Assembly (NCBI GenBank): GCA_023150835.1
Contig: JAKLKB010000105.1
Span: forward strand, 1 to 24,848
Direction of reading: 5' to 3'
Length of the DNA: 24,848 bases
Source: Myxococcota bacterium
GTDB lineage: Bacteria; Myxococcota_C; UBA6777
Shown piece by piece: positions 9,268 through 16,167 of the stretch. Each line of letters begins with the position of its first letter. The first letter of the stretch is position 1. The translations under genes were made by a program, and so were the position numbers. The notes beneath the pieces are model-generated. The model was given only the letters and a program-made list of their open reading frames with translations. It searched no databases and was not told the DNA's origin.

Positions 9268-10821
9268 ATGAACACGACAGCAGAGAAGATCGAGGCGCTA
9301 CGGGCGCTCAAGAAGAAACTCCTTGATGGACAAGACCCGACAAAGATCGCCAAGCGCCACGAATCGGGAAAATACACCGCTCGCGAACGGATCGAAAAGC
9401 TCCTCGACCCCGGGACATTCCGAGAAACCGATGCCCTTGCACGCCACCGCTGCTATGACTTTGGAATGGACAAACAACGTCCCGAAGGCGACGGTGTGAT
9501 CACTGGCTATGGCAAGGTTCATGGCCGTCTTGTGTACGTCTTCTCACAAGACTTTATGGTGTTTGGTGGCTCGCTTGGCGAAGTCTTTGCAGAAAAGATC
9601 TGCAAGATCATGGATATGGCGATCCAAAATGGCGCGCCCGTGATCGGGATCAATGACTCGGGAGGAGCGCGCATCCAAGAAGGTGTCGTGAGCCTCGGTG
9701 GATACGCCGAGATCTTCTATCGCAATGTGCTTTCTTCGGGCGTCGTTCCACAGATATCTGCGATCATGGGACCGTGCGCAGGAGGAGCCGTCTATTCTCC
9801 TGCATTGACCGACTTTATCATGATGGTGGACAAAGGCAGCCATATGTTTATCACAGGCCCCGAAGTGATCAAGTCCGTCACCCGCGAAGAAGTCACCTTC
9901 GAGGAGCTTGGGGGGGCGATCACCCACAACTCAAAAAGCGGTGTCGCCAATATGATGGCCGCAAACGAAGACGATGCGTTCGAGCAGATCCGTCACTTGC
10001 TCTCCTTCCTACCCGCCAACAACATGGAAGATCCGCCCTTTGCACCTTCGGACGATCCCGCCGATCGCATGGATGCCGAACTCAATACCCTGATCCCCGA
10101 TGATCCGAACCGCCCTTACGATATGCGCGACGTGGTTCGCCACATCGTCGATCACGGCGAGTTCTTCGAGATCCAGCCGATGTGGGGAGCCAACTTGATC
10201 ATCGGCTTTTCCCGTCTCGGTGGCCGCGTGATCGGGGTGGTCGGCAATCAACCCGCTTATCTCGCAGGATGTTTGGACGTCGACGCCTCGATCAAAGGGG
10301 CGCGCTTTGTGCGTTTTTGCGATGCCTTCAATATCCCCTTGCTGACCTTCGTCGACGTCCCCGGCTTTTTGCCCGGAACCTCCCAAGAATACGCTGGCAT
10401 CATCCGAAACGGAGCCAAGCTTCTCTACGCTTATTGCGAAGCCACCGTCCCCAAGCTCACCGTGATCACCCGCAAAGCCTACGGTGGAGCCTACGACGTG
10501 ATGTGCAGCAAACACATCCGCTCGGACTTTAACGTCGCGTGGCCCACCGCAGAGATCGCTGTCATGGGCGCAGAAGGTGCCGTCAATATCATCTTCCGCC
10601 GCGAACTCAGCCAACACCCCGATCCCACCAAACGCCGACTCGAACTCGTCGAAACCTACCGCGACAAATTCGCTTCGCCCTACATCGCCGCTGAGCGCGG
10701 ATACATCGACGATGTGATCGAACCCCAAGAAACACGGCCGCGCTTGATCGAAGCCCTCGAAGCCTGCGCCAACAAACGCGAACGTCATCCAAGTCGCAAA
10801 CACTGCAATATGCCTCTCTAA
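9268..10821 (+). CDS. Acyl-CoA carboxyltransferase, transcarboxylase 12S / PccB-like
   Basis: A 517-residue product from ATG 9268, where the family N-terminus ([18 protein letters not shown]) begins; the open frame extends upstream but that part is unlike the family. The N-terminal crotonase-like half has [18 protein letters not shown] and [19 protein letters not shown]. The C-terminal half has [13 protein letters not shown] and [13 protein letters not shown], the paired oxyanion-hole regions of biotin-dependent carboxyltransferases. Candidates are the 12S subunit of methylmalonyl-CoA carboxytransferase, propionyl-CoA carboxylase beta, or methylmalonyl-CoA decarboxylase alpha. The 5S-like and biotinyl partners next to it favour the first. 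It transfers CO2 between (methyl)malonyl-CoA and biotin. The 5S-like gene follows after 46 bp. Confidence 0.93.
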
Positions 10822-10867
10822 TCGCCTTCACAACCCAAGAGAGACCCCGATACACCGAGGAATCTGT

Positions 10868-12400
10868 ATGCCTCAACAACACCAGCCCCCCCAAAAGACT
10901 CGCCGCCTTCATGTCACCGAAACCGTGTTGCGCGATGCCCATCAATCCTTGCTCGCCACGCGGATGCGCACCGAAGATATGCTCCCCATCCTCGAAAAGC
11001 TCGACCGTGTGGGCTATTGGTCCGTCGAGATGTGGGGTGGGGCAACCTTTGATTCTTGTATGCGCTTTTTGCGCGAAGATCCGTGGGAACGCTTGCGCTT
11101 GATCCGCCACGCCATGCCCAACACCCGCCTCCAAATGCTGATGCGCGGCCAAAATATCGTCGGCTACAAACATTATCCAGACGACCTTGTGCGCGCTTTT
11201 GTCCAACGCACCGCACATTACGGCATGGATGTGTTTCGGATCTTCGATGCCCTCAACGATATCCGCAATATGAAAGTCGCCATCGAATCCGTCCTAGAGA
11301 CAGGAAAGATCGCCGAAGGCGCGATCTCTTACACAGTATCGCCCTTCCATACCGTCGAACGCTACGTCGACTTCGCCAAAGAACTCGCCGCCCTTGGATG
11401 CCAGCAGATCTGCATCAAAGACATGGCCGGCTTGCTCGATCCACAAACCGCCGCCAAGCTGGTGCGCGCCATCAAAGAAGCCCTCCCTCTGCCTGTCCAC
11501 GTCCATTCTCACGCAACCAGCGGCATGTCCGAAGTCTCTTATCTCAAAGCTGTCGAAGCGGGCGCAGATATCATCGACACCGCGATCTCTGCTCTTGCAG
11601 GGGGGACCTCTCAACCTCCCACAGAGTCGATCGTTGCCACCTTCCAAGGAAGCCCCTTCGAGACTGGACTCGATCTCAGCCTACTTTCCGAGATCGCCGA
11701 ATACTTCCGCGCCGTCCGCGAAAAATACGCCCACTTTGAAAGCAAGTTCACCGGCATCGATCCCCGTGTCTTGCGCTTCCAGATCCCGGGCGGCATGATC
11801 TCCAACCTCGCCAACCAACTCCGCGAACAAGGCGCGCTCGACCGCATCGAAGAAGTTCTCGAAGAAGTCCCCCGCGTCCGCGCCGAGATGGGCTACCCTC
11901 CCCTCGTCACACCCACCAGCCAGATCGTCGGGACACAAGCCGTCCTCAACGTCCTCAGCGGCGAACGCTACCAAAACTTTAGCCTCGAAGCCCGCAACCT
12001 CCTGCTCGGAAAATATGGCCGTTGCCCCGCACAAACCGACGATACCCTGCGCCAACGCGCCGAAGAACTCAACAAACAGCCCCCCATCACCACCCGCCCC
12101 GCTGACCTGCTCGAACCCCTGCTCGAAATCAGCCGCCAAGCCGTCAAAGACAAAGGCGGCGATCTCGAAGATGACGCGATCTCTTACGCTCTTTTCCCTC
12201 CGATCGCGCTACAGTATTTCGACGAACGCGATCGCGGCGGACCCGCCCCCGAAGTCCTTGCTGCCGCCCTTTCCGCTGTGATCTTTCACCTCCGCCAAGA
12301 TATCGTCGAACAAGAGGCCCATCCCAACGGTCGTTCCTCGATCAATCCGTGGAAATGGGCCGGACGCATCGAAAGCCTACGTGGCCGTCTTTTCCCCTAA
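10868..12400 (+). CDS. Transcarboxylase 5S-like / pyruvate-oxaloacetate carboxyltransferase subunit
   Basis: A 510-residue protein. The HMGL-like TIM barrel starts TETVLRDAHQS with metal ligand Asp23. KDMAGLL places Lys184 at the position of the carbamylated lysine of the Propionibacterium 5S subunit, and HVHSH supplies metal ligands His213 and His215. The C-terminal conserved carboxylase domain shows QIPGGM, PRVRAEMGYPPLVTPTSQIVG and KPITxRPADLL-like sequence. There is no biotinyl domain in this chain, unlike many OadA proteins; the carrier is encoded separately downstream. It would transfer CO2 between carboxybiotin and pyruvate/oxaloacetate. Pyruvate carboxylase subunit B is the main alternative, but no biotin carboxylase gene is present here. 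Confidence 0.93.
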   Translation: MPQQHQPPQKTRRLHVTETVLRDAHQSLLATRMRTEDMLPILEKLDRVGYWSVEMWGGATFDSCMRFLREDPWERLRLIRHAMPNTRLQMLMRGQNIVGYKHYPDDLVRAFVQRTAHYGMDVFRIFDALNDIRNMKVAIESVLETGKIAEGAISYTVSPFHTVERYVDFAKELAALGCQQICIKDMAGLLDPQTAAKLVRAIKEALPLPVHVHSHATSGMSEVSYLKAVEAGADIIDTAISALAGGTSQPPTESIVATFQGSPFETGLDLSLLSEIAEYFRAVREKYAHFESKFTGIDPRVLRFQIPGGMISNLANQLREQGALDRIEEVLEEVPRVRAEMGYPPLVTPTSQIVGTQAVLNVLSGERYQNFSLEARNLLLGKYGRCPAQTDDTLRQRAEELNKQPPITTRPADLLEPLLEISRQAVKDKGGDLEDDAISYALFPPIALQYFDERDRGGPAPEVLAAALSAVIFHLRQDIVEQEAHPNGRSSINPWKWAGRIESLRGRLFP

Positions 12401-12658
12401 TCCACTATACTTTGCGGGATTCGTTTTTTGTGAGGTGTCACCCCACACCCCACAAGGGAGCTTTTCCCCCTTGACCCCGTATCGGCGGAACGGATCGACG
12501 TTTTTCAAACAGACAACGGCACCGCTTGTCCTGACACAAACACGAAGGGTTTCTGCCCGCCGCATCCGTTCTATCCCATCGGATATCCCGAGATCACGGT
12601 ATCTTTCGTTTGTCATGTCTCAACGTATCCTGTCCCCCCAACCCAAAAGGCTGCTCTC
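12401..12658. other. Intergenic spacer inside the carboxyltransferase cluster
   Basis: 258 bp with no gene. It contains a short hairpin, CAAGGG (12453-12458) with CCCTTG (12468-12473), inside sequence rich in CCCCAC. No T-run follows, so termination is unproven. The gap is unusual if the biotinyl gene is co-transcribed with the two genes before it. Confidence 0.4.
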
Positions 12659-13210
12659 ATGTCTATGCGCGGTAAGATCCAACTCGATCAACTCGGCTTT
12701 GATGTCGAAGCCTCCCAACACGGCGAGCAGATCCGCGTCGCCCTCGGCAACCAAGAATTCCTCGCACACCTCCAAGAAACCCCCCAAGGTTTCAAGGTCC
12801 GCGTCGGCGAAGTCTTGTTGTCTCTCGATACTCCCAAAGAACAAAAAGATGCGATGCGCCTCTCTCGCAGCACCAATGTCTCGATCGACGGCAAGATCCA
12901 CCAAGTTCGTTTTGCTCCCATACGCACACAACGAAAGATCCAAAAAAGCGCAAGTACCGGTAGCAGCGAAGGCAGCGTCACCGCCTTTATGCCGGGAACC
13001 ATCGTCCGCGTCATGGTCACCGTCGGACAACACGTCCAAACAGGCGATGTCCTCTTGATCCTTGAAGCCATGAAGATGGAAAACGAAGTCAAAGCCCCCC
13101 AAGACGGTCTGATCAAAACGCTTCACGTCGCCGCAGGCTCCAACGTCAACAAAGGCCAGACTCTCGTCGAGATCGAGCCGCCCTCCCCTGCCGAGACCGC
13201 CGAAGTCTGA
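12659..13210 (+). CDS. Biotinyl carrier subunit (transcarboxylase 1.3S-like)
   Basis: A 183-residue protein. The C-terminal lipoyl/biotinyl domain (about 108-175) has the EAMKMEN biotinylation motif with Lys139 as the biotin site, after GTIVRVMVTVGQHVQTGD. The N-terminal ~95 residues form a beta-rich domain seen ahead of the biotinyl domain in longer BCCP-like proteins, making this longer than the ~123-residue Propionibacterium 1.3S subunit. ATG at 12659 or 12665 are both possible; neither has a strong ribosome-binding site. It would shuttle CO2 between the 12S-like and 5S-like subunits. It is followed after 12 bp by the split aminotransferase gene. Confidence 0.92.
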   Translation: MSMRGKIQLDQLGFDVEASQHGEQIRVALGNQEFLAHLQETPQGFKVRVGEVLLSLDTPKEQKDAMRLSRSTNVSIDGKIHQVRFAPIRTQRKIQKSASTGSSEGSVTAFMPGTIVRVMVTVGQHVQTGDVLLILEAMKMENEVKAPQDGLIKTLHVAAGSNVNKGQTLVEIEPPSPAETAEV

Positions 13211-13222
13211 AAGCACCCAACG

Positions 13223-13502
13223 ATGCAACGCCCTGCCCCATCGCCTCAAAAAGCCCACTGGCTGCTTGAGCCTGAAACGATCTTTCTCAACCACGGCTCT
13301 TTCGGCGCTTGCCCGCGACTTGTTCTCGAAGCCCAACACGCCTTGCGCCAACAACTCGAAGCCCAACCCGTACGCTTCTTTGTACGCGCCTATGAAACGC
13401 TGCTCGACCAAGCCCGACTCGCCCTTGCCGATTTCTTACACGCCGATCCCGAAGGCATCGCCTTTGTCCCCAACGCCACCCACGGCGTCAACACCGTCTT
13501 AC
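13223..13502 (+). pseudogene. Class-V aminotransferase, 5' fragment (interrupted by IS)
   Basis: This encodes the first 93 codons of an isopenicillin-N-epimerase-like class-V aminotransferase: FLNHGSFGACPRLV near residue 22 and a later FVPNATHGVNTVL. The frame runs ten codons into the inserted element and stops at 13534. Joining 13502 to 15257 restores NTVLRAIPFRSGDQ, the family sequence, in frame. The rebuilt protein is 396 residues, a normal length for the family. The fragment lacks the PLP lysine and cannot be active alone. It lies 12 bp downstream of the biotinyl carrier gene. Confidence 0.92.
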
Positions 13503-13519
13503 ATGAAGAGCCCGTAAAG

Positions 13520-13541
13520 CCCAATGCCTTTTAGGCTTGGG
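13520..13541 (+). repeat. Left-end subterminal hairpin of the IS
   Basis: CCCAA-(t)-GCC, loop TTTTA, GGC-TTGGG: an 8-bp stem with one bulged T, starting 17 nt inside the left end. A GTAA (13514-13517) just 5' of the foot is complementary to target TTAC, like the guide tetranucleotide that recognises cleavage sites in IS608-type elements. Confidence 0.75.
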
Positions 13542-13670
13542 ATATAAGGGCTTTTAAGCACTTGCGGCTTCAGCCGCTAATTTTTTGAAGTTTGGGTTGA
13601 CAAATTGGGGGAGTCGCTTGTACGCTAGAAATAATCCATCTTATCGAACAAGAGAGGTAGAATGGAATGA

Positions 13671-13858
13671 GTCCATCCAACCAAAAAGTATCACTCGACG
13701 CACAGTCTCGTTTATCGTTGCCAGTATCATGTCATTTTTTGTCCAAAATATCGGCGTCCTGTGTTGACATGTGGCATTGCCGAACGTCTGTTTCGACCGT
13801 TGGCAGCGTCACTTTGGACGTGGTGAAACAATACATTGAGCAACAAAAGGGGCGATAA
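13671..13858 (+). pseudogene. tnpA: Internally deleted tnpA (Y1 HUH transposase) relic
   Basis: Both ends of an IS200-type TnpA survive in different frames. From 13671 to about 13790 one frame reads HSLVYRCQYHVIFCPKYRRP and continues VLTCGIAERL, the conserved TnpA N-terminus. From about 13787 to the stop at 13856-13858 another frame reads SVSTVGSVTLDVVKQYIEQQ, the TnpA C-terminus. Only about 65 codons remain of about 130-150. The missing middle would carry the HUH motif and probably the catalytic Tyr. No good in-frame start remains (TGA precedes the N-terminal frame at 13668-13670). The relic ends 6 bp before tnpB. The simplest cause is one internal deletion with frame change near 13790. Confidence 0.78.
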
Positions 13859-13864
13859 GTCGAG

Positions 13865-15223
13865 ATGGTTCAAGTGAGCGAACAAAAGAAAGCCGCCATC
13901 AAAGACGCCTTGCGTCTGACCAAACTCCGGCGACAGACCCAAATCTGTAAGGTCTACGAACTCAAGCTCGACAAGTCCCGTTTCTCGAAAACCACTCTCC
14001 AACAACTCCAACGCCTGTTTGTTGAAGCCAAATGGTTTCGCAACGCCATCCTTGCTTCCGAAAACCTCTGGATGTTCGATACCAAAACCAAACAAGTTCA
14101 GGTCAAAGTCGACCAAGAATTCCAAACCCGACCTCTGACAGTGCTTGGCTCTCAACTCAAACAATCCATTCACGACCAAATCAAAAGTGAACTCTGTGGC
14201 TTATCCACCAAAAAGAAACAAGGTCACAAAGTCGGGGCTTTGAAGTTCAAGTCTTGGGTGGGCAGTGTGAACCTCAAACAACATGGCACCACCTACACCC
14301 TGTCCTCCAATGGTCGCCTGCGCATCCAAAACATCAAACAACGCCTTCGCACCCGTGGCATCGACCAGATTCCCCAAGGGGCTGAGTTTGCCAATGCCAA
14401 ATTGCTCTCCAGACATGGGGATTTTTATCTGCATGTCACCTGCTATCTGACAGCCCAACAACTCCAAGCCCACCATCACAAGAAACCCAAGAAGAATCCC
14501 AAACCCGCACTGCAACAAGTCGAAATTCTGGGACTCGACGTGGGAATCGCCCACCAACTGACCACAAGCAACGGCATCCAGGTGCAATATCGGGTGCCCA
14601 TCAGCCCCCAAATCCGAAAAGCCCACCAGAAGGTCAGCCGTACCCAAAAGCACTCCAACCATCGGAGGAAAGCCAGACAGAGACTGCAAAAAGCCTACGC
14701 GAAGACCACGAACATCAAGCAGAACCTCGTGAATCAGTTGGTGGCCTGCTTGTGCCTGTTTGTGAAAATCATTTGTGTGCAAGACGATTTTGTCAAAGGA
14801 TGGCAACGAATTTGGGGCAAACGGTTGTTTGAAACCACAATCGGCGGATTGATGGGCAAGTTGAAGAAGTTGCCAAACGCCGTGGTGGTCGAGCGTTGGT
14901 TTGCGTCGACGCAAACTTGTCACAGGTGTGCTCAGAAAACGCCGCACTCACTCAAAGAGAGAGTGTTTGTGTGCGGATGTTGCGGGCATACAGAGGACAG
15001 GGACGTGCATTCGGCCAAAAACATAGAAGAGAAGGGATGGAAAAAGAGGATAGGTGGGGAGCCTACCGAATCCTCGCAGGAGCCTCGCGGGAGGGCCTGT
15101 GAACCGACGCCTGTGGACATCAAGACCACTGCTCTGATGGTGGAATTCCTCAACCGGATTCCGCACATCCGAGCAAGTCTCGTGGCTGAAACAGGAAGCC
15201 TATTGGACAAGGACGTCCCTTAG
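13865..15223 (+). CDS. tnpB: TnpB, IS605 OrfB-family RNA-guided nuclease (variant RuvC site)
   Basis: A 452-residue TnpB. RuvC-I is GLDVGIAHQL with Asp225. The RuvC-II segment reads CVQDDFVKGW where the common form is V-E-D-L-N-x-K-G, so Gln306 aligns with the catalytic Glu, although Asp307 and Asp308 are adjacent. RuvC-III is EDRDVHSAKNI with Asp380 as likely ligand. The zinc finger is CHRC (near 358) paired with CGCC. A charged tail of about 65 residues follows and overlaps the region that normally encodes the omega RNA scaffold. Active TnpB uses that RNA to cut the empty donor site and so retain the element. Whether this protein cuts DNA is uncertain. Base composition differs from neighbours: no GATC and a Gln/Lys-rich product. 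Confidence 0.93.
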   Translation: MVQVSEQKKAAIKDALRLTKLRRQTQICKVYELKLDKSRFSKTTLQQLQRLFVEAKWFRNAILASENLWMFDTKTKQVQVKVDQEFQTRPLTVLGSQLKQSIHDQIKSELCGLSTKKKQGHKVGALKFKSWVGSVNLKQHGTTYTLSSNGRLRIQNIKQRLRTRGIDQIPQGAEFANAKLLSRHGDFYLHVTCYLTAQQLQAHHHKKPKKNPKPALQQVEILGLDVGIAHQLTTSNGIQVQYRVPISPQIRKAHQKVSRTQKHSNHRRKARQRLQKAYAKTTNIKQNLVNQLVACLCLFVKIICVQDDFVKGWQRIWGKRLFETTIGGLMGKLKKLPNAVVVERWFASTQTCHRCAQKTPHSLKERVFVCGCCGHTEDRDVHSAKNIEEKGWKKRIGGEPTESSQEPRGRACEPTPVDIKTTALMVEFLNRIPHIRASLVAETGSLLDKDVP

Positions 15224-15256
15224 GAAGCCCAAGCCTTATAGGCTTGGGTAGCTCAC
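15100..15256 (+). ncRNA. Predicted omega RNA scaffold (3' end of tnpB to right end)
   Basis: In TnpB elements the guide RNA scaffold is derived from the 3' part of tnpB and the right end, and its guide is the flank just outside. By analogy the scaffold would end at 15256 and the guide would begin GTGCGATCCCCTTCCG at 15257, which is aminotransferase sequence. The 5' limit is a guess. The right-end hairpin at 15228-15248 would fall in the RNA. Confidence 0.4.
15228..15248 (+). repeat. Right-end subterminal hairpin of the IS
   Basis: CCCAAGCC, loop TTATA, GGCTTGGG: a perfect 8-bp stem ending 8 nt before the right cleavage site. The stem is the same as at the left end apart from the bulge, and the loop differs by one transposition of bases, so both would be bound by one TnpA. 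Confidence 0.85.
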
Positions 15257-16167
15257 GTGCGATCCCCTTCCGATCGGGCGATCAGATCCTGATCACCGAT
15301 CACGGATACAACGCCTGCAACAACGCGGCTCGCCTCATCGCAAAACACCACCACGCCGAAGTCATCGTTGCTTCTCTGCCTTTTCCAACACAAGAGACCG
15401 CCCAACTCCACGACGCCGTCCTCCAACACATCACGCCCCGCACCCGCCTTGTCTTGCTCGATCACGTCACCAGCCCTTCGGCGCTGATCCTCCCGATCCA
15501 CTCGTTGATCCCGAAGCTACGCGAACGCGGTATCCTCACCTTGATCGACGGTGCCCACGCACCCGGCATGTTGCCGCTTGATCTGCGCACGCTTGATCCT
15601 GATTTCTACACAGGCAACTGCCACAAATGGATGTGCGCCCCCAAAGGCACGGCGTTTTTGTACGTCCGCGACTCTTGGCGCGAATCCCTTCAACCTCTCG
15701 CCATCAGCCACGGCGAAAATGACCTACGCTCCGAACGCAGCCGCTTTCACAAGCGATTCGATTGGGTGGGTACAGGCGATCCCACTCCCTATCTCACCCT
15801 TCCCACCGTCCTTTCCACTCTCCCTCAGATCCTTCAACTCTCTTGGCAAGACCTCCAACAACAACAACACGAAAAAGCCTGTGCCGCGAGGCAACTGCTC
15901 TCACAACGCCTCTCTCTGCCTCTGCTCTGCCCTGATCATCTGCTCGGTAGCATGGCCGCTTTGCCCCTTCCCCCACTCCCTTCTTCCCCACCACCCGGCA
16001 CGATCGACCCTCTCCAACAGCGCCTCTTTACCGACCACGCCATCGAGATCCCCGTCATGCCCTACCCTTCGCAAAATCAACGACTGCTCCGCCTCTCCGC
16101 ACACGCCTACAACACCACCGACGAATATCTCTATCTCGCTCACGCGCTCTCAGCCCTCCTTTCCTAA
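15257..16167 (+). pseudogene. Class-V aminotransferase, 3' fragment (interrupted by IS)
   Basis: The remaining 302 codons of the split gene. The original frame resumes at CGT GCG ATC with the C of TTAC. Visible family features are LITDHGYNACNNAARLI, LLDHVTSPSALILPI, the DGAHAPGML motif with the PLP-contacting Asp-x-x-His, and YTGNCHKWMCAPKG with the PLP-binding Lys (HK). A TTG at 15244 inside the element could start a 307-residue product missing the first domain, but no ribosome-binding site supports it. Relatives include isopenicillin-N epimerases and cysteine desulfurase-like enzymes. The substrate is unknown. Confidence 0.92.

Follow-up and report, generated by a model that had tools for sequence, protein, structure and literature searches.

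GATC excess as a probable by-product of a genus-wide AAT/GAT trinucleotide signature in a Myxococcota genome

The cyanobacterial word HIP1 (GCGATCGC) is over-represented under both first- and second-order Markov models and accompanies methylases of GATC and CGATCG (PMC4390886). The Myxococcota genome studied here resembles this case in having a very frequent GATC-containing word; unlike HIP1, however, the excess disappears at second order (observed/expected ratio 2.26 under the dinucleotide model and 0.98 at order 2). Dam/MutH-directed repair concerns the same tetramer, and a sister genome encodes a DpnM/Dam relative, but the present genome differs in having neither a Dam protein above the family cut-off nor MutH. 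Genome signatures, the taxon-specific biases of di-, tri-, and tetranucleotides, are likewise genome-wide and strand-symmetric, differ little between coding and non-coding DNA, and are shared within a genus; the bias described below differs from them in its strength, with AAT at 0.47 and GAT at 1.52 of expectation, beyond the range of a 64-locus panel. The window also contains an insertion that, like TnpB-only elements of the IS605 family, has OrfB_IS605 and TNB domains and similar short end motifs, although no TnpA transposase gene was seen in it.

Frequency of GATC in the window and in the genome

GATC was counted exactly in the window, that is, the whole stretch of 24,848 bp analysed here, and in 601 kb sampled in stretches spread over the 7.56-Mb draft genome (G000, 93% complete). 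The comparison within the phylum covered five genomes: G000, the other genome of its genus (G001), and G002–G004 from sister genera. The features considered are listed below.

1–24848, no strand: host DNA in which GAT/ATC is in excess and AAT/ATT depleted, the probable source of the GATC excess
9541–10320, no strand: GATC-dense stretch in a carboxyltransferase-like gene, 20 GATC, at the upper end of the genome's normal range
13223–13502, plus strand: class-V aminotransferase gene, 5′ part, host-like in GATC, aligned to the uninterrupted gene in G001 (contig C240)
13503–15257, plus strand: inserted TnpB-only IS605-type element, no GATC, ends approximate
15257–15305, plus strand: six GATC in 49 bp of the aminotransferase 3′ part just past the element, sites between 15261 and 15301
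15262–16167, plus strand: 3′ part of the aminotransferase gene (PF00266)

The window holds 273 GATC (approximately one per 91 bp), whereas shuffled windows with the dinucleotides kept held 118 ± 10 (maximum, 143). In the genome sample, 6469 GATC were found, corresponding to one per 93 bp; since the excess is not local, any contrast with the inserted element is a contrast with the whole genome. Against the dinucleotide model, no tetramer exceeded its expectation by more than GATC (2.25 in the first 334 kb sampled). The initial annotation, which relied on hand counts, had reported approximately 20 GATC at 9541–10320, six at 15257–15305, and none in the element, and the exact recount returned the same values. 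Its claim of an excess over random expectation is also real and applies genome-wide, but the density of one per 40 bp that it gave is a local peak; 780-bp stretches with at least 20 GATC were found in five of the 22 sampled stretches. The six-site cluster was the densest seen, and no such cluster appeared in a 3-Mb order-2 simulation. It lies within a conserved stretch of the aminotransferase gene, and three of its five alignable sites are also present in G001. No GATC occurs from 13449 to 15260. By codon phase (0, 1, and 2), GATC of the window numbered 69, 11, and 166, compared with 47, 9, and 67 after shuffling of synonymous codons, which bears out the earlier statement that the excess is not confined to a single phase.

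GATC counts at the trinucleotide level

In the 601 kb of G000, the order-2 Markov model predicted 6592 GATC, slightly more than the number found, and the corresponding ratio in the congener G001 was 0.95. With a codon-phase-specific order-2 model the overall ratio was 0.95, and the single phases stood at 0.95, 0.83, and 0.96. The Karlin index, which corrects for all shorter and gapped words, was 0.93; GATC is neutral by this measure because the value lies between the limits of 0.78 (under-representation) and 1.23 (over-representation) used in PMC4687349. A Markov model thus explains the counts without extra GATC, the outcome that the initial annotation itself had named as evidence against its proposal, and selection on the word is not supported. 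A signal that inflates the trinucleotides on which a model of order k−2 is built can be taken up by that model and so be hidden. For this reason, GATG, GATA, CATC, and TATC were used as direct controls, which counter this objection though not to the last percent. When synonymous codons were shuffled over 98,529 codons, the phase 2 ratios to the shuffle were 1.82 for G-ATC, 1.97 for G-ATG, 1.99 for G-ATA, and 1.53 for G-ATT, versus only 0.18 for A-ATC (hyphens mark codon boundaries). The phase 0 ratios were 1.44 for GAT-C, 1.48 for AAT-C, 1.43 for CAT-C, and 1.50 for TAT-C, and the probability that the next base is C was 0.465 after GAT, 0.557 after CAT, and 0.478 after TAT. Since GATG and GATA, as well as AAT-C, CAT-C, and TAT-C, were raised like GATC, the enrichment belongs to GAT and ATC separately. 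GATC is not favoured as a word, and its excess is explained at the trinucleotide level.

Relative to the dinucleotide expectation, GAT/ATC stood at 1.52 and AAT/ATT at 0.47 in the 601 kb of G000. With counts symmetrised over strands and the coding and non-coding fractions separated by mechanical ORFs, GAT was 1.52 in coding and 1.49 in non-coding DNA, AAT was 0.45 and 0.48, respectively, and the order-2 ratio of GATC in the non-coding fraction was 0.95. Because non-coding DNA is nearly the same, codon choice is a consequence and not the cause, and the earlier suggestion of a bias at the DNA level, beyond protein or codon choice, was right. The values in G001 were nearly identical (GAT, 1.51; AAT, 0.49), and the sister genera G002–G004 were much weaker (GAT, 1.12–1.21; AAT, 0.67–0.77). 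The genus lies outside both ranges of 64 diverse loci from other phyla (GAT, 0.73–1.27; AAT, 0.51–0.98). The bias thus behaves as a genome signature, being similar in coding and non-coding DNA, common to a close relative, and fading with distance. Raised GAT and ATC overlap as GATC, so that GATC rises 2.3-fold without any pull on the tetramer. These results make it highly probable that a genus-wide, strand-symmetric preference for GAT/ATC over AAT/ATT produces the GATC excess as a side effect. Striking word counts can therefore mislead, as a palindrome may be two to three times over-common with no pull on the palindrome.

Methylases, avoided sites, and alternative explanations

No dominant longer word was found around GATC in G000: GCGATCGC occurred 25 times against 45 expected, and the flanks of GATC were varied. 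With the order-2 ratio of 0.98, these counts do not support the HIP1-like role that had been proposed. GATATC, considered as a second enriched palindrome (332 versus 165 expected at order 2 or 3), was rejected, being neutral by the Karlin index (0.90) and by 5-mers (1.09).

The search of G000 for a dam-like methylase, which the earlier annotation had recommended, detected three MethyltransfD12 proteins with scores of 26, 28, and 42 bits. None of the three reaches the Dam-family cut-off of 114.85 (TIGR00571), and neither of the two compared with solved structures had a match. MutH had no match in the five genomes of the phylum, while the E. coli control was positive. Contig C194 of G000 carries a gene for a DpnA/CcrM-type adenine methylase, whose best PDB match was CcrM. 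Its product is 49% identical to a methylase of plasmid pSRQ700, which is among its nearest annotated plasmid relatives and is encoded by the middle gene of a two-methylase operon, between a DNA adenine methylase gene and a type II restriction endonuclease gene. The C194 product may be specific for GATC or GANTC. Orthologues of it were found in G001 (97%), G003 (65%), and G004 (63%). A true DpnM/Dam relative is encoded in G004, where GATC was lowest (dinucleotide-model ratio 1.05, compared with 1.34 in G003). Although both hold C194 orthologues, and G004 also Dam, G003 and G004 are low in GATC, and across the five genomes the density of GATC did not vary with the methylases present. The suggested link with a GATC methylase is therefore not supported.

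G000 as a whole is rich in methylases (three D12, 12 N6/N4, and 11 C5 matches, with some genes split over two matches), which fits a long history of restriction-modification. On contig C94 (L017), a D12 methylase domain occupies the C-terminal part of a 692-aa protein adjoining large helicase-like and other phage- or element-like ORFs. Avoided sites were surveyed in the window as a whole and in samples of G000 (601 kb) and G001 (229 kb). CCWGG was almost entirely absent, with 19 occurrences versus 1100 expected at order 2 (0.02 of expectation). Several 6-bp palindromes were likewise depleted (observed/expected: CGCGCG, 4/529; CCGCGG, 2/232; CTCGAG, 5/209; GTGCAC, 5/151), and the avoided palindromes stood at 0.01–0.06 of expectation, far under the usual threshold of 0.78. 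This avoidance is common to the genus, and most of the sites are far less avoided in the sister genera; the exception is CTCGAG, which was low in all genomes compared, sister genera included. As a record of selection at the DNA level in the genus, this near-total loss of CCWGG and several 6-bp palindromes probably says more than the GATC excess does.

Three other explanations of the GATC excess were weighed. If GATC were selected as a word, a methylase acting in mismatch repair, replication timing, or a HIP1-like role would need the sites, and GAT and ATC would follow. This would agree with the top rank of GATC among tetramers under the dinucleotide model and with the C194 gene, whose pSRQ700 relative makes GATC methylation possible. 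Against the by-product reading, G is slightly more conserved between G000 and G001 before ATC than before ATG (263 of 297 versus 150 of 181), although this test of GATC-specific conservation was not significant (Fisher P = 0.10). However, GATC shows no order-2 excess, GATG and GATA are equally raised in the same phase, and GATC is low in G003 and G004 despite the C194 orthologues and lowest in G004 despite its Dam. With D12 scores of 26–42 bits against 115 in G000 and no MutH in the five genomes, we consider selection of the word very unlikely.

It is just as improbable that translational preference for codons or codon pairs (ATC for Ile, GAT for Asp, and NNG before Ile or Met) creates the excess. 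ATC accounts for 83% of Ile codons and GAT for 60% of Asp codons, and most GATC lie in phase 2, but a 1.63-fold excess remains after the synonymous-codon shuffle and non-coding DNA has the same bias. Restriction-site avoidance might instead raise GATC indirectly, as one of the few unavoided palindromes, and the depletion of CCWGG and the 6-bp palindromes and the many methylase matches fit this idea. Avoidance cannot, however, lower AAT or raise GAT beyond palindromes; GATG, GATA, and TATC are also raised, and GATC stands at its order-2 expectation, not above it. Such an indirect effect is accordingly given equally little credence.

Origin of the trinucleotide preference and the TnpB element

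For the preference for GAT/ATC over AAT/ATT, substitutions were read at four-fold degenerate sites in a 91-kb alignment of G000 and G001, which are approximately 93% identical. Before AT, these sites were A in 4% and G in 58% of cases, compared with 20% and 26% before AC. A before AT changed to G at approximately 0.5 per A versus 0.05–0.28 in other contexts (33 A–G pairs), and the rate of G to A before AT was 0.034, ca. 2–3-fold below most contexts. A mutable A in AAT fits these rates better, since strong selection should nearly abolish the G-to-A change; the argument assumes equilibrium and draws on few A sites. Context-dependent substitution of A by G in AAT and of T by C in ATT would turn AATC, GATT, and AATT into GATC. 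Mutation bias is the likeliest source of the signature, with about an even chance; selection acting on properties of the DNA and other causes share what is left. More tentatively, the genus may possess a strong mutational or DNA-modifying process, specific to sequence context, by which A is turned into G in AAT (and T into C in ATT) throughout the genome. If so, this process would reshape both codon choice and tetramer content, and the GATC excess would be its most visible trace.

The inserted element was delimited, approximately, from the empty site in G001 together with two similar motifs at its ends (GCCTTTTAGGC and GCCTTATAGGC). On contig C240 of G001, the aminotransferase gene is uninterrupted, with 92% identity (DNA of the 5′ part, and protein). 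The TnpB ORF (13865–15223) matched PF07282 above the cut-off and PF01385 with 30.3 bits, just under the cut-off of 30.5. The element contains 27 AAT and 16 GAT, the reverse of the host, and G precedes none of its 16 ATC codons. Its lack of the host signature leads to the GATC contrast and supports a recent arrival; together with the empty site in G001, it shows that the initial annotation was right to regard the element as recent foreign DNA. The element probably came recently from DNA without the AAT/GAT signature and has not adjusted to it. From its own composition, 4–6.6 GATC were expected versus none found (P about 0.001–0.008), so that the deficit is not only relative to the host. Perhaps, as a guess, this deficit stems from earlier hosts with GATC restriction. 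In TnpB homologues, GATC was mostly below the codon-shuffle mean, with small counts and with a longest plus-strand ORF that may not be tnpB in several loci, so that the deficit is claimed for the element of the window alone. The nearest relative found for the element belongs to the sister genus represented by G003 (52% identity). In this poorly sampled phylum, the AAT/GAT bias could serve to date foreign DNA.

The element also carries CCAGG at 14578, a site nearly missing from the host. A second, distant TnpB (29% identity) is encoded on contig C7 (L025) of G000, with one GATC in its central 963 bp, far below host density. Elsewhere in the window, the intergenic stretches 12413–12564 and 131–236 belong to two families of dispersed repeats, roughly 80–140 bp in length, with approximately 45 copies together among the matches in G001.
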